Source of the DNA: a virus
IMG/VR virus record: IMGVR_UViG_3300017742_000097
Span: 1 to 26,320 of that record
Length of the DNA: 26,320 bases
Strand: one strand, 5' to 3'
The position numbers were made by a program, and so were the translations under genes. The notes beneath the pieces were generated by a model. That model was not told the DNA's origin. It saw only the letters and a program-made list of their open reading frames with translations, and made no database searches. This document shows, piece after piece, positions 1,000 through 21,200 of this stretch (position 1 is its first letter; every line of letters starts with the position of its first letter).

Positions 1000-1399
1000 A
1001 GATTTTCAAAACGTAAACGAAAAAACTACTCCTGTTAACGCACCTTCAGAAAGTGATATGCACCTTAATGATATTACTAGTGACCAAATTGTTGCTAGAA
1101 TTAATAACTTTGTAGGTTCAATTGCGAGCATGGAACATATTAATCCAATGGCAGCAGTAAATCATTTAAGAAGTAAACTACACGGTTTAGGTGTAGAAAT
1201 GGTTGGTGAGTTACCAGAGTTTGTTGAGAAGAATGGTACAGTAAGTATTCCACTATCTAAGTTTGGTGGTGTATATGGTAAAACAGGTGAAGAACCTGCT
1301 AGTGAAGTTAAAAATGATGACGGTATTGAAAGAAATTTAAAAATTAAATACGAGACATTAGAAAACGGAGCTACAAAGGTTTACGCTGAATTAGTATAA
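986..1399 (+). CDS. Conserved hypothetical protein of marine T4-like phages
   Basis: 137 residues. It begins MKSFKDF, a start often seen in small T4-like virion-associated proteins. The middle (about 27-60) is a helical segment with INNFVGSIASMEHINPMAAV, and the second half (70-137) looks like beta strands with LSKFGGVYGK, a GDGIE-like acidic turn and a hydrophobic end. From memory, cyanophage myoviruses carry a protein with the same order (a ..FVG.. helix followed by ..PLS+(F/Y)GG.. strands). A GGAG site at about 975 precedes the start. Function is unknown; a structural or assembly role is inferred from place. Confidence 0.75.
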   Translation: MKSFKDFQNVNEKTTPVNAPSESDMHLNDITSDQIVARINNFVGSIASMEHINPMAAVNHLRSKLHGLGVEMVGELPEFVEKNGTVSIPLSKFGGVYGKTGEEPASEVKNDDGIERNLKIKYETLENGATKVYAELV

Positions 1400-1408
1400 G
1401 CGTAGATA

Positions 1409-1774
1409 ATGAGGTTTGATAATTTAACAAAGGACAATGTCCTACTGTTTGCTTTGAAACACTATGAAAACCATCAAGCGACAAGCGAGAAGGAATTTTA
1501 TGATGATATGAAGCGATTTAAGTATCTGAAAAGACTGTTTAAGAAATACAGTAAGTCAGGTGTTATTAAAGAGCGATTGATTATGAACCATATTATTGTA
1601 TTGGCAAACGTGTTTGGTCCAGACGCAGTTAAAGTATTATTATTTTTTAAGATTGACCAGATTTATTGGACACAGTTGAAAACATTTTTGATATTTCTAA
1701 ATTATATGACCGCAGATGAATTGAAACAAATCTCACTAGATGGTAGTTTATTAGAGGCATTAAGGAAAATATAA
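1409..1774 (+). CDS. Conserved hypothetical protein of T4-like marine phages (DUF7207-like)
   Basis: 121 residues, mostly helical and basic. The pattern of an N-terminal LTKDNVLLFALKHYENH helix, then EFYDDMKRFKYLKRLFKKY and a hydrophobic MNHIIVLANVFGPDAVKVLLFFKI stretch broken by a Gly-Pro turn, then LKTFLIFLNYM, matches from memory a protein found in nearly all cyanophage myoviruses and labelled DUF7207. The hydrophobic stretch is amphipathic rather than a clear membrane segment. The TAA stop is joined to the next ATG (TAAATG). The biochemical role is not known. Confidence 0.75.
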   Translation: MRFDNLTKDNVLLFALKHYENHQATSEKEFYDDMKRFKYLKRLFKKYSKSGVIKERLIMNHIIVLANVFGPDAVKVLLFFKIDQIYWTQLKTFLIFLNYMTADELKQISLDGSLLEALRKI

Positions 1775-2380
1775 ATGGCAAGTACAGCAATTGACGCTTT
1801 TATCACGTTTCGTTTTTTGAAACTATTAGTTACTCCATTTAATAAAACTGAGGCATTTAAACTTGGTATTATTAATGAGAGAGGTAAAGTTTTAAAGAAG
1901 TACAAGACACTTGAGCGAATAGAAGAAAGGCAAGCATATACTATTTTACACAGGTTGGTTTTCAATGTAAAGAAATTGATTGAAAAAGTTCCTGGTGGTA
2001 AGTCCAGATTGGCGAGTTATGCTGCCGCTCTATTTCTTATTAAAGAACATGTTGCTGAAATGAATGATAGTGACGGAGAACTGCTGGAAAAAGAATTTTA
2101 TAAATACTTAAAAGACAATGACTTACTTGAAGAAGAAGATAACGAGATTAAGGAAGAAGTTGCTTTTGGTGATAAACTTTTAAAAGGTACTTACAAGTTA
2201 ATACAAAGTGTGGGTACAGATGAAGAAGACAAGATTATAGGTAAAAAAGGTGACAAAGTTTCTGTTTATGCAGACCAAGTTGCTAAAGATAATGTTATGG
2301 GACAAGATGTTTTTGAAGTGATACATGATGAGAGTAAACAAGTATTACTAGTAACAATAGAAGACATAGAAGAAGCATGA
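1775..2380 (+). CDS. Conserved phage protein, probable virion-associated
   Basis: 201 residues. The N-terminal part (1-60) has a conserved-looking FITFRFLKLLVTPF stretch then KTEAFKLGIINERGKVLKK. A helical middle (70-120) contains AAALFLIKEHV, and a very acidic stretch (about 115-140) leads to a beta-rich tail in which a GDKVSVYADQV segment resembles a small barrel. From memory, T4-like cyanophages carry a homologue with the same N-terminus, sometimes called a structural protein. The stop overlaps the next ATG (ATGA). No enzyme motif was seen. Confidence 0.7.
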   Translation: MASTAIDAFITFRFLKLLVTPFNKTEAFKLGIINERGKVLKKYKTLERIEERQAYTILHRLVFNVKKLIEKVPGGKSRLASYAAALFLIKEHVAEMNDSDGELLEKEFYKYLKDNDLLEEEDNEIKEEVAFGDKLLKGTYKLIQSVGTDEEDKIIGKKGDKVSVYADQVAKDNVMGQDVFEVIHDESKQVLLVTIEDIEEA

Positions 2381-2745
2381 AAACATACGCAAAATTTAAA
2401 AAAGGTCCAGAAGTTGTAGAAGCAATGGACATGGCTGCTAGAAGAAAGAAGTCAATTAGAATGAGACGTATGGCGAAACGTATGGTTATCGCAAGAAAAC
2501 GTGCCATGAAAAGAATGGCAACTCCAGATATTTTAAAGAAACGTGCCACTAAACAGGCAAAGAATATGTTGATTAAAAAATTTACTAAAGGTATGGATAA
2601 AAGTGATATGACAATTACAAAAAGAACAGAGATTGAAAAAAGATTAAAGAAGATGGCAGGTAGAATTAAAACTATCACACTAAAACTAATCCCTAAGATA
2701 CGACAAAAAGAACAAGCAAGACGTAAACAAATGGGTGGACAATAA
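2377..2745 (+). CDS. Very basic Lys/Arg-rich protein, possibly nucleic-acid binding
   Basis: 122 residues with an extreme excess of Lys and Arg and many Met, forming long basic helices, for example RMRRMAKRMVIARKRAMKR at about residues 28-46. Such proteins sit at this place in other marine T4-like phages (from memory). The composition suggests binding to DNA or RNA, such as packaging into the head or neutralising phosphate, but no fold is recognised. ATGA overlap with the preceding gene and a one-base overlap with the next (TAATG) place it firmly in the operon. Confidence 0.75.
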   Translation: MKTYAKFKKGPEVVEAMDMAARRKKSIRMRRMAKRMVIARKRAMKRMATPDILKKRATKQAKNMLIKKFTKGMDKSDMTITKRTEIEKRLKKMAGRIKTITLKLIPKIRQKEQARRKQMGGQ

Positions 2746-3821
2746 TGAAAAATTTTTCAGACTTCAATGCTCAGTTAACGGCGTTAAAAATAAAATTAGA
2801 AGGCAAACAAAACGAGATTGCTAATGTTGCAGGTGACGGTGCAGTTTCTATGCCACCTACTGCTAGAAAAGTTGTTAAAAAGAAAAAAACATTTAGTGTA
2901 TCTCCACAAGTCTTTGATATGTTCAGACGAGGTAAGAAGAAGTTTGAAAAATGGTCTAAGTATCTAAACTTAGAAGATGAAAGTCAAAGAGCATTATACA
3001 GTTGGGCAATCAAAAATCATCACGGTGTCATTATCTTACAAAATGCTGTAACAGGTGAAGTAAGAGCAATCAGACATAATAGAATGGGTGGTGGACAATG
3101 GCACAAACTAAGTCGTGGTATTGTAGGTGAAGATAAAGATATGCCTAAAGCAGTATTAGATGACGCTGAAGAAATAGTAAAAGATTTAAAAAAGAAAAAA
3201 GCAGACTTTGCTAAGAGATATGGTAAAGACGCTAAAAAAGTTATGTATGCAACTGCTATGAAAATGGCAAAAGCAAAAAATGGTATTGAAAGTAAACAAT
3301 ATGGTAAAATGATACAACAGATTAAATCTAGTATTGAAAACTTAGGTCTACAAAACGAAGACTTTAATTCAAAGATAGAAAATCAATTGTATGAAACACC
3401 AGCAATTGCTAACGAAAACAATATCAATATTTTAAAAGATATAGTTTTAAAGAATGAAAGACAAAAGATTAATTTTGACAAGTATGGAAGTATGAGAGTA
3501 TTTCCAGAAGAAGCAAGTATATTACTAAAAGTATATAATGAATTAAGAGACGACCTAAAAGAGAAGTTTACAAAGATGTTAAACTTTAATCAAATGGGTC
3601 TTAAAAGTTTAAAAAATATGTGTTATGAAATAGCTACGTATGGTGAACCACAAGGTCTGGCAAGACCTATTGCTGATATAGGTAATATGAAATCACCACG
3701 AAGCAGACCTGCTTATGCTTTAAATGCAAGTAAGAAAAAGAAAAAAGAAACGGCAGTAGGTCCTGGTATGAACACATATAAACCACAAATGAATTTAATA
3801 GCAAAAAAGAAAAGGGACTAA
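2745..3821 (+). CDS. Conserved T4-like phage protein with basic central domain
   Basis: 358 residues. Residues about 43-118 form a domain starting KKKKTFSVSPQVFDMFRRGK, with NHHGVIILQNAVTGEVRAIRHN, a beta hairpin-like segment; residues about 150-175 hold AKRYGKDAKKVMYATAMKMA, a helix that I recall in virion proteins of cyanophage myoviruses. Residues 200-320 look like a separate helical domain, and the tail is Lys-rich. It may be made as a virion or internal head protein, inferred from the basic composition and from relatives. No protease or nuclease motif was seen. The start overlaps the previous stop by one base. Confidence 0.7.
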   Translation: MKNFSDFNAQLTALKIKLEGKQNEIANVAGDGAVSMPPTARKVVKKKKTFSVSPQVFDMFRRGKKKFEKWSKYLNLEDESQRALYSWAIKNHHGVIILQNAVTGEVRAIRHNRMGGGQWHKLSRGIVGEDKDMPKAVLDDAEEIVKDLKKKKADFAKRYGKDAKKVMYATAMKMAKAKNGIESKQYGKMIQQIKSSIENLGLQNEDFNSKIENQLYETPAIANENNINILKDIVLKNERQKINFDKYGSMRVFPEEASILLKVYNELRDDLKEKFTKMLNFNQMGLKSLKNMCYEIATYGEPQGLARPIADIGNMKSPRSRPAYALNASKKKKKETAVGPGMNTYKPQMNLIAKKKRD

Positions 3822-3822
3822 C

Positions 3823-4425
3823 ATGGAATTATTAATAGCTTTAGCAATGAAATTTTGGCAATGGTCAATATTGATTACACTAATCATAATAGGTTTTATT
3901 GTTAACCTATTAGATAAAAAAGATAACACTAATAGAATAGGTTTTAAATATACAGAATTTCCTCATATGAAACCAATACCAATTAAAACAAAAGGTAAAG
4001 GTTTTTGGAAAGGTATATTAATGTGGTTATTAGGTACTAGACAATGGGAAATTGTAAAAGATTTTAACTACTCAGTAGGTGGATCACAATATGTTATACC
4101 AGCAGGTTTTAAATTTGATGGTGCGAGTATACCAAAATTCTTACATACATTTTTGTCACCAGTAGGTGTATTATTAATGGGTGGACTTGTACACGATTAT
4201 ATGTACAAGTATGAAGCACAATTAATAAACAACAAAAATTACATGGACCCAAATCTAAAAAATGAGGGTGTACCTGTTACACAAAAGAAAGCAGACCAAA
4301 TCTTTAGAGATATTAATATAGAGATTAATGGTTTCTTTCTTATGAATTACTTAGCATACTGGTCATTAAGACTAGGTGGTTTTATGGCGTGGAATAAACA
4401 CCGTAAAGTTAACGCTAAGATTTAG
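3823..4425 (+). CDS. DUF1353 family membrane-anchored protein
   Basis: 200 residues. A hydrophobic segment at about 6-28 is a likely membrane anchor. The core at about 85-175 has the DUF1353 signature: a beta strand ending in GFKFDGASIPKFLHTF, then GLVHDYMYK, where an Asp-Gly-Ala-Ser-Ile-Pro turn and a His-Asp pair are conserved in this phage family. The family's function is not known; members often lie near lysis genes, as here, one gene before the spanin pair. A peptidoglycan or envelope role is inference. The start is one base after the previous stop. Confidence 0.8.
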   Translation: MELLIALAMKFWQWSILITLIIIGFIVNLLDKKDNTNRIGFKYTEFPHMKPIPIKTKGKGFWKGILMWLLGTRQWEIVKDFNYSVGGSQYVIPAGFKFDGASIPKFLHTFLSPVGVLLMGGLVHDYMYKYEAQLINNKNYMDPNLKNEGVPVTQKKADQIFRDINIEINGFFLMNYLAYWSLRLGGFMAWNKHRKVNAKI

Positions 4426-6905: not shown

Positions 6906-9221
6906 TTGTCCCAAATTAACGTCAAAAAAAGAAATGGTAGAGGAACAGAACCTCTTAACTTAGAGAAAATACACTCTATGGTAGGTTATGCCTGTAAAGA
7001 CTTAGCAGGTGTATCTGAAAGTTTAGTAGAAATGAATAGTGGTATACAATTCTATGACGGTATTAATACAGATGATATACAACAAATTTTAATTAAGTCT
7101 GCTAGTGATTTAATTACATTAGAAAATCCTAATTATCAATACGTTGCTGCTAGATTATTACTATTCAGTTTAAGAAAATCTTTATATCATAGACTATGGG
7201 AACTACCACACTTACAAAAACATATTGAAACATGTATAGAACAAGGTGTATATGATCCTGATATTTTAAAATGGTATAGTAAAGAAGAAGTTGACCAGAT
7301 GAATGGTTTACTCAAACATGAAAGAGATTACTTATTTTCATATGCAGGTATGAGACAAGTGCTTGACAAGTACCTTGTACAAGATAGAAGTTCAGGACAA
7401 ATATTTGAAACACCACAATTCATGTATATGATGATTAGTGCTACATTATTCAGAAATTACTCAAAAGACAAAAGGATGAATTATGTTAAAAAATATTATA
7501 ACGCAATATCAACCCACCTTATCAATATTCCTACACCGGTTATGGCAGGCGTTAGGACTCCTATCCGCCAGTATGCTAGTTGTGTCCTTGTGGACGTTAA
7601 TGATACTCTTCCTAGTATCTTCTCTAGCGATATGGCTATTGGGCGTTATGTTGCTCAAAGGGCTGGCATTGGTATCAATGCTGGCAGAATTAGGGGAATT
7701 AATAGTCGTATCCGTGGCGGCGAAGTTCAACACACCGGCGTTGTCCCATTCCTTAAAAAGTTTGAAGCAACGGTCAAGTGTTGTACACAAAATGGTGTTA
7801 GAGGAGGGTCAGCGACTGTACACTTTCCTATCTGGCACCAAGAAATAGAAGATATACTTGTTTTAAAAAACAATAAAGGTACGGAAGATAATAGAGTTAG
7901 AAAGTTAGATTACTCTATACAGATATCAAAACTATTTTACGAAAGATTTATTAACAACGAAGACATAAGTTTATTTTCTCCACACGAAGTACCAGGTCTA
8001 TATGACGCATTTGGTACAGATGAGTTTGACGAAATGTATATGATGTATGAAAGAAAAACAAGTGTGAAGAAACATAAAGTAAAGGCACAAGAGTTATTTG
8101 GTGCAATCTTAAAAGAAAGAGCAGAAACAGGTCGTATCTATATTATGAACATTGACCATGCTAATTCTCATTCATCTTTTAAAGATAAAGTAAACATGTC
8201 TAATCTATGCCAAGAGATTACATTACCAACAGACCCTATTGAACATATAGATGGTGCAGGTGAGATTGCATTGTGTATTCTATCTGCTATTAATATGGGT
8301 GCAATCAATGATAAAGAAGAATTAGAAAACCTTTGTGATTTATCTGTAAGAGGGTTAGAAGAAATTATTGACCATCAAAATTATCCTGTTTTAGCGGCAG
8401 AAAGAAGTACAAAAGCAAGACGTTCATTAGGTATTGGTTATATTGGTCTTGCTCATTTCTTAGCAAAAAACAAGGTTTCTTATGCTTCAAAAGACGCCTG
8501 GAGAATGGTGGACGAGTTTACTGAGGCATTTCAATACTATCTACTCAAAGCATCCAATGAGATTGCCAAAGAGAAAGGACCATGTGAATACTTTAATAAA
8601 ACTAAATATTCAGATGGTATACTACCTATTGACACTTATAAGAAAGATGTTGATACTATTGTCAAAAGAAAGCTGAGTTATGATTGGTCTGCTCTTAGAA
8701 AGGATATCAAAGAACACGGATTACGTCACTCAACATTGTCAGCACAAATGCCTAGTGAAAGTTCGTCTGTGGTGTCAAATGAAACAAATGGTATTGAACC
8801 GCCAAGAGACTACTTGTCTATTAAGAAAAGTAAAAAAGGTCCACTCAAACAAATAGTACCAGGATATCCTAATATCAAAAACTTCTATACCCTACTTTGG
8901 GATATGCAAGGCAACGAAGGTTATATCAATGTCGTTGCAGTAATGCAGAAATACTTTGACCAAGCAATATCAGGTAACTGGTCTTATAATCCAGAACAGT
9001 TTGAAGGTAATGAAGTGCCTATTTCTGTAATGGCAAAAGATTTGTTGACTACATATAAATTAGGATGGAAAACAAGTTATTATCAAAATACATATGATAG
9101 TAAAAGTGATAGTGATGAACCACAACACAGTATTGGTGGTCCAGAACAAGAATTAAAAACAAGAAATGAGTTTCAAAGTGATGAAGCTTATGAGGAATAC
9201 TGTGAAAGTTGTGCAATATGA
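6906..9221 (+). CDS. nrdA: Ribonucleotide reductase class Ia, large (alpha) subunit
   Basis: 771 residues, full length. It reduces ribonucleoside diphosphates with NrdB. Seen: an N-terminal ATP cone (VKKRNGRGTEPLNLEKIH onward), active-site Cys226 (QYASCVL) and its partner Cys457 (ALCILSA), the catalytic N433-x-C435-x-E437 (NLCQE), the radical-transfer pair Tyr725-Tyr726 (SYYQNT) and a C-terminal CESC pair for reduction by glutaredoxin, here CX2C and not the CX4C of E. coli. It begins with TTG one base after the primase stop, behind AAAGAGG; no ATG is near. About 7505-7835 uses different codons (CTT, GGC, ATC, CGT, AGG in place of TTA, GGT, ATA, AGA). The TGA overlaps the next ATG. Confidence 0.95.
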   Translation: MSQINVKKRNGRGTEPLNLEKIHSMVGYACKDLAGVSESLVEMNSGIQFYDGINTDDIQQILIKSASDLITLENPNYQYVAARLLLFSLRKSLYHRLWELPHLQKHIETCIEQGVYDPDILKWYSKEEVDQMNGLLKHERDYLFSYAGMRQVLDKYLVQDRSSGQIFETPQFMYMMISATLFRNYSKDKRMNYVKKYYNAISTHLINIPTPVMAGVRTPIRQYASCVLVDVNDTLPSIFSSDMAIGRYVAQRAGIGINAGRIRGINSRIRGGEVQHTGVVPFLKKFEATVKCCTQNGVRGGSATVHFPIWHQEIEDILVLKNNKGTEDNRVRKLDYSIQISKLFYERFINNEDISLFSPHEVPGLYDAFGTDEFDEMYMMYERKTSVKKHKVKAQELFGAILKERAETGRIYIMNIDHANSHSSFKDKVNMSNLCQEITLPTDPIEHIDGAGEIALCILSAINMGAINDKEELENLCDLSVRGLEEIIDHQNYPVLAAERSTKARRSLGIGYIGLAHFLAKNKVSYASKDAWRMVDEFTEAFQYYLLKASNEIAKEKGPCEYFNKTKYSDGILPIDTYKKDVDTIVKRKLSYDWSALRKDIKEHGLRHSTLSAQMPSESSSVVSNETNGIEPPRDYLSIKKSKKGPLKQIVPGYPNIKNFYTLLWDMQGNEGYINVVAVMQKYFDQAISGNWSYNPEQFEGNEVPISVMAKDLLTTYKLGWKTSYYQNTYDSKSDSDEPQHSIGGPEQELKTRNEFQSDEAYEEYCESCAI
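7483..7848 (+). other. Candidate overprinted gene inside nrdA (hydrophobic ORF, +1 frame)
   Basis: A 121-codon ORF read one base ahead of nrdA. Its ATG has AAAGGA at 7471-7476 with 6-base spacing. The product is very hydrophobic over about residues 19-80, with two or three possible membrane segments (ALGLLSASMLVVSLWTLM; SSLAIWLLGVMLLKGLALV), then a polar, partly basic tail, which is holin-like in outline. Its limits nearly match the stretch where nrdA codon use changes. Against it: a reverse-strand frame is also open here, so altered composition alone could remove stops. Reported as a candidate only. Confidence 0.2.
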
Positions 9222-9757
9222 TAATATCAAAACAAATAAGTTTAATAGACACGCAAGAAAAAAGACAAGCGTTGATAGACGCTTTTGAAGAAAACAAAGA
9301 TTTAGTAAAGATAGATAAATTTGGATTTGAATATATAAGTTCGCATGATTTACCTGAAAAGTATGATGATAAAACACAACATATTTCTGACGCAATTATA
9401 GGACTACATGAATTTTTAAATTTATATGCACCTACTAAGAATGGCGTACAGTTAAAATATATACAAATAAGAAAACAACACGGTGATATGCATGTTCCAT
9501 GGCACAATGAAAAAGAATGGAACAGACTAGACATTCACATTCCACTAAATAAGACTACTGGCGGTGTATATCGTTTTCAACATGCAGTTATATCAAATAA
9601 AATGGGTAGTCTATTAATGTTTGACCCTAATATAGATTTTTGGTCAGTTGATAAAGTTGAAACTCCACATTATAAAATTGTAATAAGATGTAGTGACCTT
9701 GACCCTGAGTTAAGATACACAGGACAAGGTGATTTAATTAACTATCCAGAGGTATAA
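9218..9757 (+). CDS. Putative double-stranded beta-helix (hydroxylase-like) protein
   Basis: 179 residues from the ATG that overlaps the nrdA stop (ATGA); an upstream TTG at 9209 is less likely. The region 88-160 reads like an Asp/Asn beta-hydroxylase or 2OG-Fe(II) oxygenase fold: MHVPWHNEKE, then LDIHIPLNK, then a strand with MGSLLMFDPN and a final strand KIVIRCSD. Candidate metal ligands are His92, His96 or His107, but where the family has a second-half His before SV this protein has Trp142 (FWSV), so catalysis may be lost or the likeness superficial. It lies between nrdA and nrdB. The substrate is unknown. Confidence 0.6.
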   Translation: MIISKQISLIDTQEKRQALIDAFEENKDLVKIDKFGFEYISSHDLPEKYDDKTQHISDAIIGLHEFLNLYAPTKNGVQLKYIQIRKQHGDMHVPWHNEKEWNRLDIHIPLNKTTGGVYRFQHAVISNKMGSLLMFDPNIDFWSVDKVETPHYKIVIRCSDLDPELRYTGQGDLINYPEV

Positions 9758-11977: not shown

Positions 11978-12072
11978 TAGGTCTATTTTTTTTAGGAATA
12001 CCTGTGACAGTATTAGCAATGTATATATTATTAAAAGCAAGGGAACATGATGATAATAACAGGAGTAGATAA
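11974..12072 (+). CDS. Small single-span membrane peptide, 32 residues
   Basis: Begins at the ATGA overlap with the nuclease stop and ends inside the first glycosyltransferase gene. The product has one hydrophobic segment (about 3-21) and a charged tail (KAREHDDNNRSR). The gene spans what would otherwise be a 70-base gap and contains the AAGGGA ribosome site of the next gene, so it may act mainly to couple translation. Function unknown. Confidence 0.5.
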   Translation: MIGLFFLGIPVTVLAMYILLKAREHDDNNRSR

Positions 12073-12691
12073 GAACCATGAAGACATGGTTATCTGGTGG
12101 TATGAAAATGTTAAAAAACATAATCCAGATGTAAAAGTAGGCATATGGGATTTTGGTATGTCTATGCAAATGAGAGAAGTAGTTAAAGGTATAGACGCAT
12201 GGTTAAGTGAACCTATTACACACCCTAGTAACATAGGTTGGTTTAATAAAACAAGAGCAGTTATAGATACACCAAGTCAATCAGTTGCATGGTTAGATGT
12301 AGATTGTGAAGTCTTAACAAACATAGAAGAAATATTTTCATTAGTGCCATCTAACATGATAGGTCTTACTAGAGATTGGGTAAGAGACAATTGGTGGGCA
12401 ACTGGCGTTATAGTTGTTAATGATAGACCAGAATTACTTAAACATTGGAATGAAATGTTGTTAAAGACAGCAATCAGAGGCGACCAAGAAATGTTATTTG
12501 AAATAGTTGGTAAAGAAGAGCATGATGAAATACAAGAATTGCCACAAGAATATCAATGGTTAAGAATATCATTAAATAAAGGCGTAGATAGTCCAACTAA
12601 AAAGATTATTCACTGGACAGGACCTAAAGGTAAAAGATTTATAAGAGAACATTTAAAACAAGGTAGAAAGTATAAAGGTGAAACTGTATGA
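12047..12691 (+). CDS. Glycosyltransferase, GT-A fold, GT8-like
   Basis: 214 residues. Seen: an N-terminal Rossmann-like strand (IITGVDKNHEDM), the metal-binding D-x-D at residues 84-86 (AWLDVDCEV), and near the end a HWTGPKGK segment that fits the HxxGxxK signature of GT8 family sugar transferases. It would move a sugar from a nucleotide donor to an unknown acceptor. AAGGGA precedes the start; the ATG at 12050 is an equally possible start. The end overlaps the next gene (ATGA). It is the first enzyme of the sugar island. Confidence 0.75.
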   Translation: MMIITGVDKNHEDMVIWWYENVKKHNPDVKVGIWDFGMSMQMREVVKGIDAWLSEPITHPSNIGWFNKTRAVIDTPSQSVAWLDVDCEVLTNIEEIFSLVPSNMIGLTRDWVRDNWWATGVIVVNDRPELLKHWNEMLLKTAIRGDQEMLFEIVGKEEHDEIQELPQEYQWLRISLNKGVDSPTKKIIHWTGPKGKRFIREHLKQGRKYKGETV

Positions 12692-13779
12692 TAAATGAAA
12701 CTACCATTTCTATTTTAACACCTACAAGAAATAGACCTAACAATTGTGAAAGGTTTATTAAATCAATATATGCAACAGCAAGTGATAAGACTAAGATAGA
12801 ATTATTTTTTTATGTTGATAATGATGACCCAGCATTAGAACAATACAAATCTTTAGCTGCTCATTGTGATAGTGAATATAAAGATTTTAAAAAAGTAGAT
12901 TTTACATTTGATGAACCTAAAAGTGTTTCTATTTCATGGAATGATTTAGCAGCTAAGAGTTCAGGTTATTTAATGATTATGGGTAATGATGATTTAATTT
13001 ATAGAACTGCTAATTGGGATAGTTTACTCATACAAAATTTAGCAATAAGATATAAAGAGGATCCATATTGGGTTAGTTGGGTCAATGATGGTATCAATGC
13101 TGATAGACATTGTGCCTTTCCTATTATTGCAAGAGAGTGGTATAATACTGTAGGTTATTTTGCACCTGGTTGTTTTCATTTTGGTTACAACGATACATGG
13201 GTATTTGATATTGCAAAGAGATTAGAAAGAACACATTATATTAATAACATACTTGTTGAACATATGCATTTTTCAAAAGGCAAAAGTGATATGGACGATA
13301 CATATGCTCACAATAGAACAGGACCTAGAGGCAATCTATATCAAAAAGATAAAGGTATTATGGAACATCCTAATCAAGTACAAAGAAGAAAAGAAGAAGC
13401 AGAAAAAATTAAACAAGAGATAAACAAGATAAAAGGTCCGTCTTTAAAAGCACAAGTGATTGAAGATATACCTGAATATGAATTAGTATTTGTACAGAAA
13501 CTAAAAAAAGAATGGCAAGCAACTTCACATAAACTAAAAGAAGACCCATTAAAAGAACAGACAGAAAAATACAATAAACTATGTGAGAGTATAAAAAAAC
13601 ATGGTATGAAATATCCTATTCTGATTGATGGTGAAGGCAAAGTATTACGAGGCAATCAACGAGCATGGTATTGTATTGATAATGATATTAAATACATTAG
13701 TGCTTATAGAATAAAAGATAGTAATATAGATAAGTTTATTCAGAAAACATATATTGACGGTGACGAATACCCTCTATGA
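12688..13779 (+). CDS. Fusion of GT2-like glycosyltransferase and ParB-like domain
   Basis: 363 residues. The first 200 or so are GT2-like: SILTPTRNRP at 8-17, a VDNDD stretch at 43-47 and MGNDDL at 98-103 as the metal and nucleotide site, and HFGYNDTWVFD at about 164-174. A charged helical linker (about 230-295) follows. The C-terminal 70 residues read like a ParB/sulfiredoxin-type domain: LCESIKKHGMKYPILIDGEG then a RGNQRAWY segment in place of the usual dG-x-R. ATGA overlaps join it on both sides. The acceptor is unknown; the ParB-like part may bind nucleotide or regulate. Confidence 0.7.
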   Translation: MINETTISILTPTRNRPNNCERFIKSIYATASDKTKIELFFYVDNDDPALEQYKSLAAHCDSEYKDFKKVDFTFDEPKSVSISWNDLAAKSSGYLMIMGNDDLIYRTANWDSLLIQNLAIRYKEDPYWVSWVNDGINADRHCAFPIIAREWYNTVGYFAPGCFHFGYNDTWVFDIAKRLERTHYINNILVEHMHFSKGKSDMDDTYAHNRTGPRGNLYQKDKGIMEHPNQVQRRKEEAEKIKQEINKIKGPSLKAQVIEDIPEYELVFVQKLKKEWQATSHKLKEDPLKEQTEKYNKLCESIKKHGMKYPILIDGEGKVLRGNQRAWYCIDNDIKYISAYRIKDSNIDKFIQKTYIDGDEYPL

Positions 13780-14498
13780 TATATGCTCTATATAGAATCC
13801 ACTATGGATTAGATTTCTTAGAAAAATCAATTAACTCAATCATTGATGATGTTGATATGATTTTTATATACTGGTCTAAACAACCTTGGTATAAAGATTG
13901 TAAAAATTTACCACCTTTGAATGAGAATGTAAAAGAGTATTGCAAAAGATGGAATGGTAAAGTAAATGTTATAGAAAGAGAATTTGACCTACCATCAGGA
14001 CAATATACTCAAATGTATTCAGACATGATTACAGGTCATACAATACCCAAAAAAGTATTGATGATGGAACCTGATATGGTATGGGACAAAGAACAATTAA
14101 AAAAAGCATTACAACTAACAGACGCTGAAGTTTCATTTAAACAAATAGAATTTTGGAAGAATGAAGAATGGTATATAAAAAGAACTAGAGAAAGACCAGG
14201 ACCTACATTGTATAATCAGGCACCAGGTCTAACAGGTAAAGGTACTGCTTCAAATCAAAAACTTGTAAACAATGATATATATTGTTATAATTATGGATTT
14301 TGTTTAAGCAACGAAGTGATGAAGTATAAGTTTGAAGTCGCCGTGCAGTCGTCTAAATATTACAAAGATAGTTTACCTGCCAAAGACTGGTATGAAAAGA
14401 AATGGTTAAACTGGACACCAGAGACGGAAGATTTAGAAATGTCAGAAGCACATAAACACTACATAAAGAAAGCACATCCTTATGGCACTAAAGATTAA
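13776..14498 (+). CDS. Probable glycosyltransferase (GT-A-like)
   Basis: 240 residues. The N-terminus (ALYRIHYGLDFLEKSINSII) and a middle strand ending in VLMMEPDMVWD (about 94-104) match GT-A type transferases with a metal-binding acidic site, here E-P-D. Aromatic-rich helices fill the C-terminal half. No GT family can be named with certainty. It is translationally coupled to the fusion protein before it (ATGA) and overlaps the radical SAM gene by 17 bases. The small higher-GC patch at 14336-14358 is too short to interpret. Confidence 0.6.
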   Translation: MIYALYRIHYGLDFLEKSINSIIDDVDMIFIYWSKQPWYKDCKNLPPLNENVKEYCKRWNGKVNVIEREFDLPSGQYTQMYSDMITGHTIPKKVLMMEPDMVWDKEQLKKALQLTDAEVSFKQIEFWKNEEWYIKRTRERPGPTLYNQAPGLTGKGTASNQKLVNNDIYCYNYGFCLSNEVMKYKFEVAVQSSKYYKDSLPAKDWYEKKWLNWTPETEDLEMSEAHKHYIKKAHPYGTKD

Positions 14499-15852
14499 AG
14501 ATTACGAACCAGTTAGATTGCACACCAAAGAAGGTTCTGAAATAGGTCTCTATAAAAAATTAACAGAAGCAGGTACTCAATATGTTATCTATAGACATGC
14601 TGCCAGAGGTAAGATTAAAAACTTTGTTGGTAATTATGAATACATTGATAACAACAACGTATCACATTTAAAACCTATAGACTTAGAATACGGTAATAAA
14701 ATTTTAGATAGAGTAGAACAAGGAATGAAATATTCCAATATCTATATTTTCTATGATGTAAAAAGTGAAGATACAAAATTACCAGATGAACCAAGTGAAC
14801 AAGAACATAAATTTACATCTACAGGTATTAAATGGTGGCGACACCAAGAGGCAATGTTTAATTATAAGAATGGTAATCCTAATACAGTTATTTCCACACA
14901 CATAAGTCCTGAAGGTGCATGTAATCTTAAATGCCCATATTGTAGTGTAACATATAGAGATACACATACAAGAATAGATTTAGATACAATAAAAGACTAT
15001 GTACTAAAATTAAAGACAAGAGGATTAAAAGCAGTAATATTAACTGGTGGTGGCGAACCTACTGCTTACAAACATTTTAATGAATTAGTACGTTGGATAT
15101 ATGGCGAAGGATTAGAAGTTGCCTTAATTAGTAATGGTAGTAAACAATATTGGAAACGTATAGACGAAGATGTATGTAAAATGTTTAGTTGGGTTAGAAT
15201 ATCAATTAATGTATTTACAGATTGGGAAAACAGAATTGGTTTACCATTAGAAAAATTTGATATGAATAAAACAATTGTAGGTAACTCAATGGTCTATACA
15301 GTAGAACACGAACTATCAGACGAAGTAATGGAAGATAGAGTTGGGTTACTAGATAAAGTTTCTAAAGTGGCAGACGCTTGTGGTAGTAAGTATGTAAGAT
15401 TATTACCTAACTGTTTATTAGAACAAGAGAATTTAATTAGACAACATAAAAGTTTAGACAATGTATTGTCACAGGTAACAGATACAAGATTTTTTCATCA
15501 ATACAAAATACATGGAGCACCTAAAACTGCCACATGCCATCAATCATATTTCAGACCTTATCTAAGTGAAGAAGTACATAAAGAGACAGGTAAACCAGGT
15601 ACTGTTTATCCTTGTGATAGTGTTGTATTGAATGATAACTATGAACACTTTGCTGAAGAATATCAGTTATGCCATGCTAGTGATATATTAGACTACTTGG
15701 ATAAAAAAGTATTACAAAAATTTGACGCAACAAAAAGATGTACAGGTTGTGTCTTTACTGATAATGTCAATATGCTTGATGATTTTATAAATGATAAAGT
15801 TAACAGGTTTGACGAATTTAAGGAGCCGTTGACACATGAAAACTTTGTTTAA
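14482..15852 (+). CDS. Radical SAM enzyme
   Basis: 456 residues. The iron-sulfur motif CX3CX2C is seen as Cys147, Cys151 and Cys154 (ACNLKCPYC), followed by the GGGEPT motif (about 189-194) that binds the SAM amino group. Further Cys in the C-terminal part (TATCHQ, VYPCDS, QLCHAS, CTGC) could hold an auxiliary cluster, as in SPASM-type enzymes. The N-terminal 115 residues are an extra domain. It would perform a radical reaction on an unknown substrate, such as a sugar, peptide or nucleotide; the glycosyltransferases around it favour a sugar. Confidence 0.85.
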   Translation: MALKIKDYEPVRLHTKEGSEIGLYKKLTEAGTQYVIYRHAARGKIKNFVGNYEYIDNNNVSHLKPIDLEYGNKILDRVEQGMKYSNIYIFYDVKSEDTKLPDEPSEQEHKFTSTGIKWWRHQEAMFNYKNGNPNTVISTHISPEGACNLKCPYCSVTYRDTHTRIDLDTIKDYVLKLKTRGLKAVILTGGGEPTAYKHFNELVRWIYGEGLEVALISNGSKQYWKRIDEDVCKMFSWVRISINVFTDWENRIGLPLEKFDMNKTIVGNSMVYTVEHELSDEVMEDRVGLLDKVSKVADACGSKYVRLLPNCLLEQENLIRQHKSLDNVLSQVTDTRFFHQYKIHGAPKTATCHQSYFRPYLSEEVHKETGKPGTVYPCDSVVLNDNYEHFAEEYQLCHASDILDYLDKKVLQKFDATKRCTGCVFTDNVNMLDDFINDKVNRFDEFKEPLTHENFV

Positions 15853-16564
15853 ACCAGGTCAATTCTTTGACGAAAATTATTACGAAAGAGGTGCAGAAAC
15901 AGGTAAGAGTTTGTATTCACATTATAGATGGATGCCAGAACTCACAATACCTATGTGCCATCATATCGCCAAATACTTAGAATTAAAAGAAACAGATAAA
16001 GTATTAGACTTTGGTTGTGCCAAAGGATTTTCAGTATATGGTCTTAGACTATTAGGTTATAAGGCATATGGTGTAGATGTATCAGAATATGCAGTTAAGA
16101 AATCACCAGAAGAAATAAGAAAGTGGTTAGGTGTAATAGAACCACAAGAAGAATTAACATGTGCTGAAGGTGGTTATGACTGGATACTTTGTAAAGATAT
16201 ATTAGAACATGTACCCTATGAAAATATAGAACAACAACTGGAAGTATTTTACAAAGGTGGTAAAAGATTATTTGTAATTGTACCTATAGGTCGTAATGGT
16301 AAATATTTAATTGATAGTTATGAACAAGACAAGTCACACTTTATCAAAGAAGATATAGATTGGTGGTCTAAAAAGATAGAAGACGCAGGTTTTAAGATAG
16401 ACTTAGCAACTTATGATTTAGGTCCTTTTAAAAAGAACTGGCAATTTGAACCAGAAGGTAATGCCTTAATTATGGCAACAAGACCAAATACTTTACACGA
16501 AGATTTAATGATAGGTTTTGAAGAAGAAAAAAGACAAAGAGAATTAGAAGAAGAAGACGAATGA
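15836..16564 (+). CDS. SAM-dependent methyltransferase, class I
   Basis: 242 residues. Seen: motif I VLDFGCAKG at 57-65, an acidic residue ending strand 2 (YGVDVSE, Asp81) and a WILCKDILEHV segment at about 116-126, which is the typical strand 4 of Methyltransf_11/23 type enzymes. AAGGAG at about 15820 precedes the ATG. The C-terminus is a run of charged residues. The acceptor is unknown; in sugar pathways such enzymes methylate hydroxyl or carboxyl groups. It overlaps the carbamoyltransferase gene by ATGA. Confidence 0.85.
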   Translation: MKTLFKPGQFFDENYYERGAETGKSLYSHYRWMPELTIPMCHHIAKYLELKETDKVLDFGCAKGFSVYGLRLLGYKAYGVDVSEYAVKKSPEEIRKWLGVIEPQEELTCAEGGYDWILCKDILEHVPYENIEQQLEVFYKGGKRLFVIVPIGRNGKYLIDSYEQDKSHFIKEDIDWWSKKIEDAGFKIDLATYDLGPFKKNWQFEPEGNALIMATRPNTLHEDLMIGFEEEKRQRELEEEDE

Positions 16565-18093
16565 TTATATTAGGATTGTACTTTGGTCATAATGCTGCTG
16601 CCTGTGTACTGAAAGATGGCGAAGTATTAATTAATTGGGAACTAGAAAGATTTACGAGAATAAAACATGACTTTGGTTTTAGTCAGGAATTTATTGATAA
16701 AACATTAGAACATTGTGGTTTAACAATGAATGATGTTGACCATATTGCATGTAATAATCCAGGCACAATTACTAGATGGATTGAACAACACATGCCAGAA
16801 AGAAAATTAAATTTTGAAGTACCTAGTGCAAAGACTTTAGAATATAAAAAGTTTGATAGAGGTTATATTGTTAATCATCATTTAGCACACGCAGCTTCAA
16901 CATACTATACAAGTCCTTTTGATACTGCCACAATCTTTACATGGGACGGTGGTGGTGATAGTGAGAACTCTAGTGTATCACAAGGTGTTGGTAATAAAAT
17001 AGAACAATATAAACCTGACGCAAGAAAGAACTTAGCGGCATACTGGTCAAGCATTACAATTAATAATTATAGAATGAAAAGAGTACATGCTTGGGATCCA
17101 GGTTCTGGTGCAGGTAAAGTTATGGGTCTTGCAAGTTATGGTAATGCTAATGAAAACTTGATAGAAAAAATAGAGCGAACATTATCAGAGGCACCAAGAC
17201 ATGAATATTATGACCCACGTGCCAGAGCATATAACAATTGCGAAGACTTATCAGATACAAAAACATCTAATAGTCAAAATGTGGCAGCAAGTTTACAAAG
17301 TCTTACTACACGAACACTATTAACTGAAATAAAGAATATTTACACAGGTAATCAAAACTTATGTTATGCAGGTGGACTTGCGTTAAATTGTATTGCAAAT
17401 AGAGAGATTATCAAACAGACAAAGTTTGAAAAATTACATGTTCCTCCGTTTCCTAACGACACAGGATTAGCGATAGGGTGTGCTTTGTACATCTGGCACC
17501 ATGTGTTAGATAACCCTAAGAAAACATCATATTTTAGTCCTTATACAGGACCAGATTATAATGTAGGACAACCTGACATTGAAAGAGTTGGTAACCTACT
17601 TGCAGATAATAAAGTTATATGTTACTATGAAGGTCGTAGTGAGAGTGGACCTAGAGCATTAGGACATAGAAGTATTTTATGTAATCCAGGTATTGATGGC
17701 ATAAGAGATAGATTAAACTACAAAGTAAAAATGAGAGAATGGTACAGACCATATGCACCCATTATACCTGAAGAAAATGCCAAAGAAATGTTATTAGATT
17801 ATAACGAATGGTCACCTTATATGCAAACAAGTGCCATAGTTAAACACGAATATGATGAGGCATTATCAGGCGTTACACAAGTTGATGGTAGTACAAGAGC
17901 ACAAATTTTAAAACATGACCATAATGAAACACTATATAATATTATACAACAAAGTAAATTGCCTGCTTTGTTGAATACAAGTTTTAACTACCAAGAACCT
18001 ATAGTTGAAACACCTGAACAGGCGAAGGCAACATTTGATAGAATGAAAGATGTTGATGTATTAGTAATTGGAGATAAAATATATGAAAGATAG
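16561..18093 (+). CDS. Carbamoyltransferase, NodU/CmcH/TobZ family
   Basis: 510 residues, near the usual length. The family transfers a carbamoyl group from carbamoyl phosphate, through carbamoyl-AMP, to a hydroxyl of a sugar or antibiotic. Seen: the N-terminal ASKHA-like domain with GHNAAACVLKDG (about 9-20), NHHLAHAAS at 105-113 with conserved His and a WDGGGDS loop at 128-134; and the C-terminal YrdC-like domain with GRSESGPRALGHRSIL (about 356-371). All key motifs look intact. The presence of this gene suggests that the island makes a carbamoylated product. Confidence 0.92.
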   Translation: MIILGLYFGHNAAACVLKDGEVLINWELERFTRIKHDFGFSQEFIDKTLEHCGLTMNDVDHIACNNPGTITRWIEQHMPERKLNFEVPSAKTLEYKKFDRGYIVNHHLAHAASTYYTSPFDTATIFTWDGGGDSENSSVSQGVGNKIEQYKPDARKNLAAYWSSITINNYRMKRVHAWDPGSGAGKVMGLASYGNANENLIEKIERTLSEAPRHEYYDPRARAYNNCEDLSDTKTSNSQNVAASLQSLTTRTLLTEIKNIYTGNQNLCYAGGLALNCIANREIIKQTKFEKLHVPPFPNDTGLAIGCALYIWHHVLDNPKKTSYFSPYTGPDYNVGQPDIERVGNLLADNKVICYYEGRSESGPRALGHRSILCNPGIDGIRDRLNYKVKMREWYRPYAPIIPEENAKEMLLDYNEWSPYMQTSAIVKHEYDEALSGVTQVDGSTRAQILKHDHNETLYNIIQQSKLPALLNTSFNYQEPIVETPEQAKATFDRMKDVDVLVIGDKIYER

Positions 18094-18841
18094 AATTGAC
18101 CACATAGTAAAATGGATAAAAGATTATGCAAACAAATATAACAAGACAACATTAGTTATAGGTGTATCAGGTGGTATAGATAGTGCAGTAGCGTCAACGC
18201 TATGTGCTATGACAGGTATCAAAGTCATACCAATTGTAATGTCAATTAAAAATAAAGATACATTAGCATTAGAACATGCTTGGTGGTTAGATGAGAATTT
18301 TGATAATGTAAGTCGTAGAGTTATTAACTTAGAAAAAATATTCCATGAGTTTGAAAACGCAAGTAATTATCTAGGTGCTGATAGTAAATTAGCATTTGCA
18401 AATAGTCGTAGTAGATTAAGAATGATGATGTTATATCAAGTGGCACAAAGTAATAATGGATTAGTTGTAGGCACAGGTAATAAAGTAGAAGATTTTGGTG
18501 TAGGTTTCTATACTAAGTATGGTGATGGTGGTGTTGATATATCACCTATTGCAGATTGTATGAAAACAGATGTATGGAAAATTGCAAAAGAATTAAATAT
18601 ATTACAATCAATACAAGAGGCAAAACCAACAGATGGTTTATGGGACGATGGAAGAACAGATGAAGACCAACTTGGTGTAAGTTATGAAGATTTAGAAAAA
18701 TCAATGAAGCAAGACCAAATGAATGCTATTGTAACTAAACCTAGTGACCAAGAAAAAATGAAGATATATATAAAACACAGAAAACAAAACTTACATAAAA
18801 TGGAACCTATTCCAGTATGTAGCATGGAGAAATTTAAATGA
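18083..18841 (+). CDS. nadE: NH3-dependent NAD+ synthetase
   Basis: 252 residues from the ATG at 18083, which has GGAG about 10 bases ahead; an in-frame TTG at 18068 is less likely. NadE converts deamido-NAD to NAD with ATP and ammonia. Seen: PP-loop SGGIDS at 29-34, GTGNKVEDFGVGFYTKYGDG at 130-149 and PTDGLWDDGRTDEDQLG at 182-198, all close to the bacterial and archaeal consensus. There is no glutaminase domain. It overlaps both neighbours by a few bases. It may raise NAD for the dehydrogenase next door or offset NAD loss during infection. Confidence 0.9.
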   Translation: MKDRIDHIVKWIKDYANKYNKTTLVIGVSGGIDSAVASTLCAMTGIKVIPIVMSIKNKDTLALEHAWWLDENFDNVSRRVINLEKIFHEFENASNYLGADSKLAFANSRSRLRMMMLYQVAQSNNGLVVGTGNKVEDFGVGFYTKYGDGGVDISPIADCMKTDVWKIAKELNILQSIQEAKPTDGLWDDGRTDEDQLGVSYEDLEKSMKQDQMNAIVTKPSDQEKMKIYIKHRKQNLHKMEPIPVCSMEKFK

Positions 18842-19983
18842 AAGTAGGATTTATAGGACTAGGTAAACTAGGCAGAGACGCAGCTGAAGTATTAGCAGAA
18901 AAACATGATGTAACAGGTTATGACCCTAACATAGATGTACCAGGATTATCAGGTACACAAGAGCAAGCATGTAAAGGTAAAGATGTAGTTTTAATTGCAG
19001 TACAAACACCACATATACCGGCATATGATGGTAAAGACCCAACATCACATTTACCACCAAGAGATTTTGATTATTCATATATCATAGAAGCAACAAAACA
19101 AGTTGACGCATTGGTAGATAAAGGTACTTTAATTTCTGTTATATCAACTATGTTACCAGGTACTGTAAGAAAAGAAATACAACCACTTGTACAAAATGGT
19201 CAGTTTATTTACAATCCTTATTTGATTGCACAAGGTACTGTAAAATGGGATATGAGAAATCCTGAAATGATTATGATAGGTACGGAAGATGGTGAAGAAA
19301 GTTTAGCAGTAGATATGTTGCATGACTTATATAATCCTATCTTAGAAAAAGAAGTAAGATATGAATTAGGTACATGGGAAGAAATAGAGGCACTCAAAGT
19401 TTTTTATAATACTTTTATTTCTACAAAACTTGCATTAGTTAATATGATACAAGACACGGCAATGAATGTTGGTCATATGAATGTTGATGTTGTAACAAAG
19501 GCATTAGCAAACAGTACGCAACGAATTATGGGACCTAGTTATATGAAAGCAGGTTTTGGTGACGGTGGTGGTTGTCATCCTAGAGATAATATCGCATTAA
19601 GAGTATTGAATGAAAGATATGACTATGGTTATGATTTATTTGACGCTATTATGAAAGCAAGAGAAGAGCAAGCTCGTAATATGGCAAAATATTGTGTATC
19701 TTTTAAAATGCCAGTAGTAATACTTGGTAGAGGTTTTAAACCAGGTGTTGAACAAACAGCAGGAAGTCCTTCTTTGTTAGTTGGTTGGTATGTTGGAAAG
19801 TTAACTACTAATACAGTATATTATGACCACGCACCAGATGAAGGCGCTTATACGTTTTTAATACACGATAAAGCAATGATACCAAAAGAATGGAATCCAG
19901 GTAGTTGTATTATAGACCCTTATAGAGAATTAGGTCCAGTTAAAAATTGTGTGGTAAAACATTATGGTAACACTCGCAGATAG
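18838..19983 (+). CDS. UDP-glucose/GDP-mannose 6-dehydrogenase family protein
   Basis: 381 residues. The family uses two NAD+ to oxidise a nucleotide sugar to a uronic acid. Seen: Rossmann GLGKLG at 7-12 with Asp29 for the NAD ribose, the AVQTP segment at 54-58, Lys187 and Asn191 (EALKVFYNTF), and the catalytic Cys246 in a GDGGGCHPRD setting in place of the usual GGSCFPKD. The C-terminal domain has LGRGFKPGVEQTAGSPS, the normal nucleotide-sugar-binding signature. The substrate sugar cannot be told. The end overlaps the next gene by 20 bases. Confidence 0.85.
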   Translation: MKVGFIGLGKLGRDAAEVLAEKHDVTGYDPNIDVPGLSGTQEQACKGKDVVLIAVQTPHIPAYDGKDPTSHLPPRDFDYSYIIEATKQVDALVDKGTLISVISTMLPGTVRKEIQPLVQNGQFIYNPYLIAQGTVKWDMRNPEMIMIGTEDGEESLAVDMLHDLYNPILEKEVRYELGTWEEIEALKVFYNTFISTKLALVNMIQDTAMNVGHMNVDVVTKALANSTQRIMGPSYMKAGFGDGGGCHPRDNIALRVLNERYDYGYDLFDAIMKAREEQARNMAKYCVSFKMPVVILGRGFKPGVEQTAGSPSLLVGWYVGKLTTNTVYYDHAPDEGAYTFLIHDKAMIPKEWNPGSCIIDPYRELGPVKNCVVKHYGNTRR

Positions 19984-20452
19984 AAAGATTGGTACAAACG
20001 TATTAGTTAATCTTGTTAATATACGTTCAACTCTACCACAAAAACTTGTAAGTGAACAAAGACATTTACAAAAAGATTATAATTCTTATGTAGAATATTT
20101 AAGTGCAAGGTGTGAAGCATTTGTAGATAGAGGTTGGAAAATTAATATAATGAATGATGTTATTGATGAAACTATTAATGATAGAAGTATTATACATCCT
20201 TTATTTCATTTTAAAAAATTTAAAAAACGAAAGTTTATACCAGAAGATGAGATAAGAAGTTATAATAAAATATTTGTTGCAGGTGTATTTTTACAACATC
20301 AAGTATTAGAAAAGTATCAAATGTTAAGAAGAACAAATCCTGAAACATATATTACACCTACAATATCATTTTGCCAAGAATGGGGATATGATACACAAAA
20401 AAATGAAAACTGGAAAAAACTTGTAACTTTAGATATGTTTGCTTATGTTTAA
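19964..20452 (+). CDS. Unknown protein in the sugar island
   Basis: 162 residues, no recognised family. The N-terminus (LADRKIGTNVLVNLVNIRS) reads like a strand-turn-strand start, and a central segment (RGWKINIMNDVIDETINDR) has acidic residues that might bind a metal. A basic FHFKKFKKRKF patch lies at about 81-91. No signal peptide or membrane helix. It overlaps the dehydrogenase by 20 bases and the oxygenase-like gene by 8, so it is co-translated. It might be a remote enzyme, but nothing in the sequence shows which. Confidence 0.65.
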   Translation: MVTLADRKIGTNVLVNLVNIRSTLPQKLVSEQRHLQKDYNSYVEYLSARCEAFVDRGWKINIMNDVIDETINDRSIIHPLFHFKKFKKRKFIPEDEIRSYNKIFVAGVFLQHQVLEKYQMLRRTNPETYITPTISFCQEWGYDTQKNENWKKLVTLDMFAYV

Positions 20453-21077
20453 TATACCTTATTGGAAATATAATGTGGATCCTAAAAGTTATGATAGAGA
20501 TACCATACTTGCAGATATAGAACATAACTATAGTTTAGATAGTGATAGAAATAAATGGGACGGCAACAATTACTTAAATAGTAAACTACATCATAGTAAT
20601 AGAGATATAGACAACCCTAAATTTAAAAAGATTAATTACAAATCTTTAGTGCCAGTTTACCATAAAATTTTTGATGGGTTTTGTAAAACGTTAGAACTTA
20701 CATCTACCTTTTCCTATGCATTTGATATTACAAATTATACTGCTATGAAATCAGGTCAATATATGCGACCACATAACCATATAGGTGATAGTGATTTTAC
20801 TTGTATTCATTATTTAAAGTTTAATCCTAAGAAACACCAATCCACAGTATTTCACAATGCCAATCATTGGGCAGACGATTATCAATATCTTAGACCTACG
20901 TTATATAAGAAACTAGATATCAATAACGAAAAACATAGTTATCTTTTAAAATACTATAAACTACCTACTGAACAGGATACCTTTGTTATCACACCTTCCA
21001 GTTTGATACACGAAGTACCACCTTTCAAATCAGACGAATTAAGGGTTACCTTAGTCGTAAATCTTCAAATTAAATAG
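20445..21077 (+). CDS. 2OG-Fe(II) oxygenase-like protein
   Basis: 210 residues from ATG 20445. Members of this superfamily use 2-oxoglutarate, oxygen and Fe(II) to hydroxylate protein, nucleic acid or small molecules. Seen: a first metal motif region MRPHNHIGDSDF (His110, His112, Asp115) and a second region ITPSSLIHEVPP with His189 and then RVTLVVN with Arg200, which would bind 2-oxoglutarate. This resembles the putative 2OG-Fe(II) family common in marine phages (PF13759-like, from memory). It is the last gene of the island, followed by a 134-base gap before the next promoter-driven gene. Confidence 0.75.
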   Translation: MFNIPYWKYNVDPKSYDRDTILADIEHNYSLDSDRNKWDGNNYLNSKLHHSNRDIDNPKFKKINYKSLVPVYHKIFDGFCKTLELTSTFSYAFDITNYTAMKSGQYMRPHNHIGDSDFTCIHYLKFNPKKHQSTVFHNANHWADDYQYLRPTLYKKLDINNEKHSYLLKYYKLPTEQDTFVITPSSLIHEVPPFKSDELRVTLVVNLQIK

Positions 21078-21171: not shown

Positions 21172-21200
21172 TTGACTTTTTGGTCTTTTTCATGTATAGT
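21172..21200 (+). promoter_or_regulatory. Sigma70-type promoter after the sugar island
   Basis: TTGACT (21172-21177), 17-base spacer, TATAGT (21195-21200). An ATG stands at 21212, 12 bases after the end of the -10, as at 5912 and 22495. Expected start is near 21206-21207. It opens the cluster of small envelope genes. Confidence 0.75.

Follow-up and report, generated by a model that had tools for sequence, protein, structure and literature searches.

Cyanophages carry surface polysaccharide clusters as well as carbamoyl/halogen/2-oxoglutarate (2OG) clusters (PMC7824862), and earlier authors assigned the glycosyltransferases (GTs) of pelagimyophages to changes of the O-chain (PMC7029224). Here we describe a ten-gene island at positions 12047-21077 of the IMG/VR virus record IMGVR_UViG_3300017742_000097, of which positions 1 to 26,320 (26,320 nucleotides, hereafter the window) were analysed. 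The island shares GTs, carbamoyltransferases, 2OG oxygenases and methyltransferases (MTs) with the lipopolysaccharide (LPS)/capsule and 'secondary metabolite' clusters of cyanophages (P-SSM2, S-SSM6a; PMC7824862), and in S-SSM6a and S-SSM7, as in the window, an NAD synthetase-like gene (NadE) adjoins a nucleotide-sugar dehydrogenase gene. However, the island's centre, a radical S-adenosylmethionine (rSAM) enzyme paired with an MT, and its dehydrogenase without the catalytic Glu161 are not described for the clusters of that study. Our data suggest, with a probability that we put at roughly 0.62, that the island is a modular glycan-tailoring operon whose likeliest acceptor is an LPS-type glycan of the host surface.

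The ten genes, their recurring core and its genomic context

The window is a piece of a T4-like pelagimyophage genome (95.4% identity over the region to Pelagibacter phage HTVC008M, NC_020484). As a sequence-only reading of this DNA had claimed, the island comprises ten open reading frames (ORFs), all on the + strand and overlapping or abutting their neighbours; they are flanked by nrdB-PDDEXK and a sigma70-like promoter match at 21172-21200. They correspond one to one to HTVC008M gp155-gp164, in identical order and position and with 95% DNA identity. The same ten genes are thus already deposited in GenBank, annotated in part (the rSAM gene, gene 4, and genes 1, 3 and 9 are labelled 'hypothetical'). 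Most of the encoded proteins are 91-98% identical to their HTVC008M counterparts (gene 9, 87%; gene 10, the most diverged, 79%). Ratios of nonsynonymous to synonymous substitution rates (dN/dS) against this phage, from 0.09 for the rSAM gene to 0.46 for gene 9, indicate purifying selection on all ten genes, and the island is therefore not due to chance. The genes are real and intact. Scans against Pfam, PHROG and family models with curated cut-offs, along with AlphaFold and Foldseek for folds, supported the families named earlier:

12047-12691, + strand: gene 1, predicted GT8-like (glycogenin-like) glycosyltransferase (weak glycogenin profile match, E 0.004; invariant D84xD86)
12688-13779, + strand: gene 2, predicted GT2-type glycosyltransferase (residues 1-240) with a C-terminal ParB-like domain (residues 285-343)
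13776-14498, + strand: gene 3, predicted GT-A fold glycosyltransferase of a family without a Pfam model (AlphaFold pLDDT 92.7; Foldseek)
14482-15852, + strand: gene 4, radical SAM enzyme (PF04055, E 1e-11)
15836-16564, + strand: gene 5, SAM methyltransferase (PF13489)
16561-18093, + strand: gene 6, O-carbamoyltransferase of NodU/TobZ type, accessory (PF02543 and PF16861, Carbam_trans N and C)
18083-18841, + strand: gene 7, NadE-type (NAD synthetase fold) ammonia ligase of a phage-specific clade, accessory (TIGR00552)
18838-19983, + strand: gene 8, nucleotide-sugar dehydrogenase without the catalytic Glu161 (Tyr128 here; PF03721/PF00984; 4a7p, E 3e-28)
19964-20452, + strand: gene 9, no assigned identity, restricted to close relatives
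20439-21077, + strand: gene 10, 2OG-Fe(II) oxygenase, accessory (PF13759, E 2e-8; phrog_81, E 1e-25)

Fold modelling and profile work support all three putative GT identities, although no convincing Pfam or PHROG match was found for genes 1 and 3. The DxD and HWxG columns of gene 1 were invariant among 14 aligned homologues and E98xD100 of gene 3 among 21, and Foldseek matched gene 3 to SunS (E 1e-7), heparosan synthase (5e-6) and viral GT17/GT2 proteins. Gene 2 matched phrog_14945 (glycosyltransferase, E 2e-98), phrog_620 (ParB-like, E 3e-7) and, weakly, PF00535; its ParB-like motif occurred in 14/40 distinct homologues, so this extension is optional. The rSAM enzyme is the most conserved protein of the cassette. 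Its CxxxCxxC cluster motif (C147/C151/C154) is shared by all 18 homologues compared, the most distant at 45% identity, as are C352, C378, C397, C420 and C423, and the pattern of these C-terminal cysteines appears SPASM/twitch-like. The carbamoyltransferase matched 7xb6, TobZ and GdmN in the PDB. The NadE-type protein, which probably starts at 18083 (the start used in HTVC008M) and not at 18068, reached 176.8 bits with TIGR00552, against a curated cut-off of 63.65. For gene 9, no family match was found, a direct scan recovered 7 loci and the fold model was unreliable (pLDDT 41).

Linked subsets of the ten genes turn up repeatedly across many unrelated marine viruses. Scans of viral contigs yielded 50 distinct rSAM genes (since contigs are fragments, neighbour counts are lower bounds), and an MT lay at most three ORFs downstream of rSAM in 45 of the 46 distinct loci with room for it. 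Within eight ORFs of the 50 genes were the dehydrogenase (36), the GTs of gene 3 (34), gene 2 (33) and gene 1 (16), NadE (15), the 2OG oxygenase (13), the carbamoyltransferase (11) and gene 9 (7). By these counts the true unit is the rSAM-MT pair, around which two GTs and the dehydrogenase form a core, and the remainder is optional. The core order GT2, GT-A, rSAM, MT, dehydrogenase is kept in distant phages (nrdB ~25%, primase 31-42% and rSAM 60-70% identical), and within the core we found neither genes scattered singly among relatives nor inactivation through loss of key residues. All cassette genes co-diverge in Mantel tests (r 0.76-0.92), which do not tell horizontal transfer from ancient joint inheritance because rSAM also tracks primase (0.92). 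The earlier proposal that all ten products act together on one glycan thus stood in part: linked sugar genes, a core that recurs in other phages and relatives in LPS/heptose-type clusters speak for it, but the single indivisible block does not hold, given that the carbamoyltransferase, NadE, gene 9 and the 2OG gene are each missing from many relatives.

The sole bacterial rSAM relative, from a Defluviitaleaceae metagenome-assembled genome (L129:9020-11588), lies inside a natural-product-like cluster. There it has a phosphotransferase-like domain fused to its N terminus, and the same MT comes next; its neighbours are a B12-radical SAM gene and two genes that resemble those of aminoacyl-tRNA synthetases and amidinotransferases.

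The genomic surroundings of viral relatives point to surface or virion glycans. In Synechococcus phage SynMITS9220M01, rSAM, MT and GT genes directly follow heptose kinase, GmhA and heptose epimerase genes. One run of Synechococcus phage Bellamy (gp212-228) holds a carbamoyltransferase, NadE, an MT, a 51% identical dehydrogenase and GTs together with GmhA, a GHMP kinase, a nucleotidyltransferase, epimerases and a member of the GT25 'LPS biosynthesis' family. The Bellamy dehydrogenase lacks Glu161, as in the window, but the set is embedded in a heptose-type sugar pathway and no rSAM relative was detected there. In other relatives, cassette genes adjoin giant tail-fibre-like genes. The island itself has features of a surface-glycan cluster, namely three GTs and, as modifying enzymes, a dehydrogenase, an MT and a carbamoyltransferase.

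In the pathway that we infer, the dehydrogenase would oxidise a nucleotide sugar, which the paired rSAM enzyme and MT would alter and which could optionally be amidated by the NadE-type ligase, O-carbamoylated and hydroxylated. The three GTs would then transfer this sugar onto an outer glycan, most likely the LPS-type surface glycan of the host, with a virion glycan ranked second. As a result, the infected cell, or the debris that it leaves, may stop binding rival phages. Several observations weigh against this proposal. Family scans found no epimerase, sugar kinase or nucleotidyltransferase among the ten genes, so the island must draw on host nucleoside diphosphate (NDP)-sugars. Many cyanophage relatives show low identity, at 22-35% for the rSAM, MT and carbamoyltransferase proteins. 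The island also adjoins nrd/primase genes rather than tail genes, a position compatible with expression in the early or middle phase and also with a role in DNA.

Glu161-less dehydrogenases and their NadE-type partners

That the dehydrogenase family makes uronic acids, as the sequence-only reading stated, needs qualification, because this subfamily lacks the catalytic Glu while keeping six other active-site residues. Gene 8 has the fold and six active-site residue equivalents in common with UDP-glucose 6-dehydrogenase (UGDH; human 3KHU/2Q3E, and 4a7p). We aligned 79 distinct proteins gathered by similarity to the window protein, numbering them on human UGDH. Glu161 of the human enzyme was replaced in 79/79 (Tyr 75, Phe 3, Gln 1), in a sample of which part was collected by a motif that contains the Tyr; the 31 that came from rSAM-selected loci had Tyr in 27, Phe in 3 and Gln in 1. 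Thr131, Lys220, Asn224, Arg260, Cys276 and Asp280 were kept in 79/79. The thiohemiacetal intermediate of the human enzyme was trapped in the structure of its E161Q mutant (PMC3184952). Judging from these residues, the Glu161-less subfamily, which at least 500 viral contigs encode, very likely departs from the textbook UGDH mechanism and may release the acyl intermediate by a non-standard route. Glu is retained in five NadE-adjacent cyanophage/marine dehydrogenases (S-SSM7, S-SCSM2R, Sf-FS3, AG-345-O18 and P-TIM68), which belong to a different subfamily (25-31% identity).

A relative with 36% identity has Ala at position 161; it is encoded on Rhizobium leguminosarum plasmid NZ_CP030764 (L244:9989-11158), near genes for an MT, a nucleoside deaminase, a GT4 and a polysaccharide deacetylase. 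A second radical SAM family (L216:5048-6454 and L208:815-2263) recurs in clusters with Tyr-type dehydrogenases. Its L216 member carries the motif CLAKWTQVTTHLHLG...SCHHP, and that cluster also contains GTs and a giant tail-fibre-like gene.

NadE genes of the phage clade keep company with these enzymes. In all 11 deposited phages with this clade (about nine independent), a dehydrogenase lies at a distance of one or two genes. Among 65 distinct NadE genes on viral contigs, a dehydrogenase stood at +1 or +2 in 30; the other 35 had none within 5 kb, and the idea that NadE always adjoins a dehydrogenase was rejected. Larger contigs with a non-adjacent NadE (n=13) nevertheless encoded a dehydrogenase elsewhere in 11 cases, each with one of the Tyr type, as against a dehydrogenase above cut-off in 3/20 control contigs not chosen for NadE (Fisher p 1e-4, a test that ignores relatedness, with controls that were on average smaller and in some cases chosen through rSAM). 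The reverse link is weak (strong NadE in 2/10 dehydrogenase contigs). NadE therefore implies the dehydrogenase and not the reverse, a pattern expected of a tailoring step that follows the dehydrogenase.

Compared with 31 bacterial NadE, the phage proteins have one inserted residue and an invariant Asp within PTDGLW. PTDGLW occurs in 63/65 viral NadE, and EDFGVGF is a second signature of the clade; at the P2-loop motif P[ST]A, all 25 aligned phage-clade sequences have Asp and 20/25 bacterial ones Ala. Two candidate markers were discarded. PTDGLW did not separate linked from unlinked NadE and so marks the clade, not the pairing, and a Tyr-to-Phe change was not diagnostic, other bacterial NadE also having Phe at that position. 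In human NAD synthetase (NADS), a P2-loop Ala (573) contacts nicotinate and the AMP phosphate (PMC6946656), though its mapping onto the P[ST]A motif is our own and unproven. NadE homologues are able to switch substrate, as the nicotinamide mononucleotide (NMN) synthetase of Francisella illustrates (PMC3376133).

Two explanations of the pairing deserve weight. The simpler is a serious possibility, at a little under even odds: NadE makes NAD, either as a cofactor for the dehydrogenase or to restore pools drained by NAD-depleting defence, and the dehydrogenase produces uronic acids in the conventional way. The intact SGGIDS motif and a score above the curated NAD synthase cut-off agree with this, as do the active-site Thr, Lys, Asn, Arg, Cys and Asp kept in the dehydrogenase, and NAD synthesis is known from some phages (PMC7824862). 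However, redox use does not consume NAD, other NAD-pathway genes are not annotated beside NadE, and NadE is not scattered but associated with the dehydrogenase. Nor does this account fit the residue differences from the 31 bacterial enzymes or the loss of Glu161 throughout the dehydrogenase subfamily. Clade-specific residues, dehydrogenase linkage and known substrate switching instead lead us to a tentative hypothesis, rather doubtful at present, that the phage clade is not an NAD synthetase but a uronamide synthetase, which would take the NDP-uronate that the partner dehydrogenase produces and adenylate and amidate its carboxylate. Such an enzyme would exploit the likeness of nicotinic acid adenine dinucleotide (NaAD) to NDP-uronate (a nucleoside-diphosphate-sugar with a carboxylate), and the new rSAM-MT pair would further alter the resulting sugar. 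A literature search, incomplete in coverage and so no proof of absence, found no paper on the NadE-dehydrogenase pairing.

Probable glycan acceptor and competing targets

If the sugar instead decorates structural proteins of the phage, whether tail fibres or capsid, it might shield the virion or tune receptor binding. Several other phages do have rSAM-MT or dehydrogenase genes closely upstream of genes for tail-fibre-like proteins of 1,800-2,000 residues, and the best PDB match of gene 3 is SunS, a peptide S-glycosyltransferase (low TM-score, ~10% identity). We nonetheless consider virion glycosylation unlikely, since the pelagiphage cassette lies far from tail genes and the cyanophage relatives are grouped with heptose-LPS genes.

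Phage DNA, which had earlier been raised as a target, is a poor candidate. The GTs, rSAM enzyme, carbamoyltransferase, oxygenase and ParB-like domain would in that case build a modified base, as might be suspected from the adjoining nrd and primase genes, from the resemblance of the ParB-like domain to domains in phage methyltransferases and from the ability of phage carbamoyltransferases to act on 5-hydroxymethylcytosine (PMC8670742). Yet the complete HTVC008M genome and a 146 kb relative gave no match to thymidylate synthase/hydroxymethylase (PF00303) or C5-methylase (PF00145), for which positive controls were detected, or to Tet_JBP (PF12851), a weak negative for want of a positive control. 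This lack of detectable base-making genes in HTVC008M disfavours DNA hypermodification, as do the restriction of the ParB-like motif to a minority of GT2 homologues, the location of relatives in surface-sugar clusters and the near absence of restriction systems from SAR11 hosts (PMC7029224). In the MetaGPA study, thymidylate synthase accompanied the carbamoyltransferases of modified contigs, and GTs were the neighbours of those on unmodified contigs (PMC8670742). The 5-hydroxymethylcytosine carbamoyltransferase of sewage phages from that work has the same Carbam_trans N and C domains as gene 6 but is paired with thymidylate synthase, whereas gene 6 is paired with GTs. We rejected as highly improbable, along with other defence readings, a viperin-like enzyme making antiviral nucleotides against rival phages: PADLOC viperin models match the rSAM core (E 2e-14), but at 40.4 bits against a curated viperin cut-off of 180, and the enzyme has extra C-terminal cysteines and a near-obligate MT partner.

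Other features of these genomes are noted here for completeness. HTVC008M carries a second carbamoyltransferase adjoining two 2OG oxygenases (1306-3891, L241) and a tryptophan halogenase adjoining another 2OG oxygenase (63198-65157, L242), which resemble the 'halogenated secondary metabolite' set of cyanophages (PMC7824862). Between nrdA and nrdB, a small ORF (window 9209-9757) shares only 48% identity with its HTVC008M counterpart, against 93-99% for nrdA, the 215-aa ORF and nrdB, which marks a local gene replacement. The sigma70-like match directly downstream of the island (21172-21200) reads TTGACT-17-TATAGT (10/12); across the region, matches of this type are not in excess of chance expectation. 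The T4-type late motif TATAAATA was not enriched within the window, where no Rfam or tRNA feature was found.

Implications for SAR11 phages

Cassettes of this general kind were known before; what this one adds is a newly defined core and two enzymes whose true activities may well differ from those that they are named for. Two points are new: the loss of Glu161 across a dehydrogenase subfamily, and a NadE clade that accompanies such dehydrogenases. If the uronamide hypothesis is true, many phage 'NAD synthetase' annotations are wrong. The rSAM-MT pair is widespread. SAR11 bacteria are the most abundant in the ocean, their phages count among the most abundant viruses on the planet, and we know of no described surface-exclusion tools in these phages; the cassette offers enzymology that can be tested gene by gene, from the Glu161-less dehydrogenase and the NadE-like ligase with a possibly new substrate to the rSAM-MT pair.

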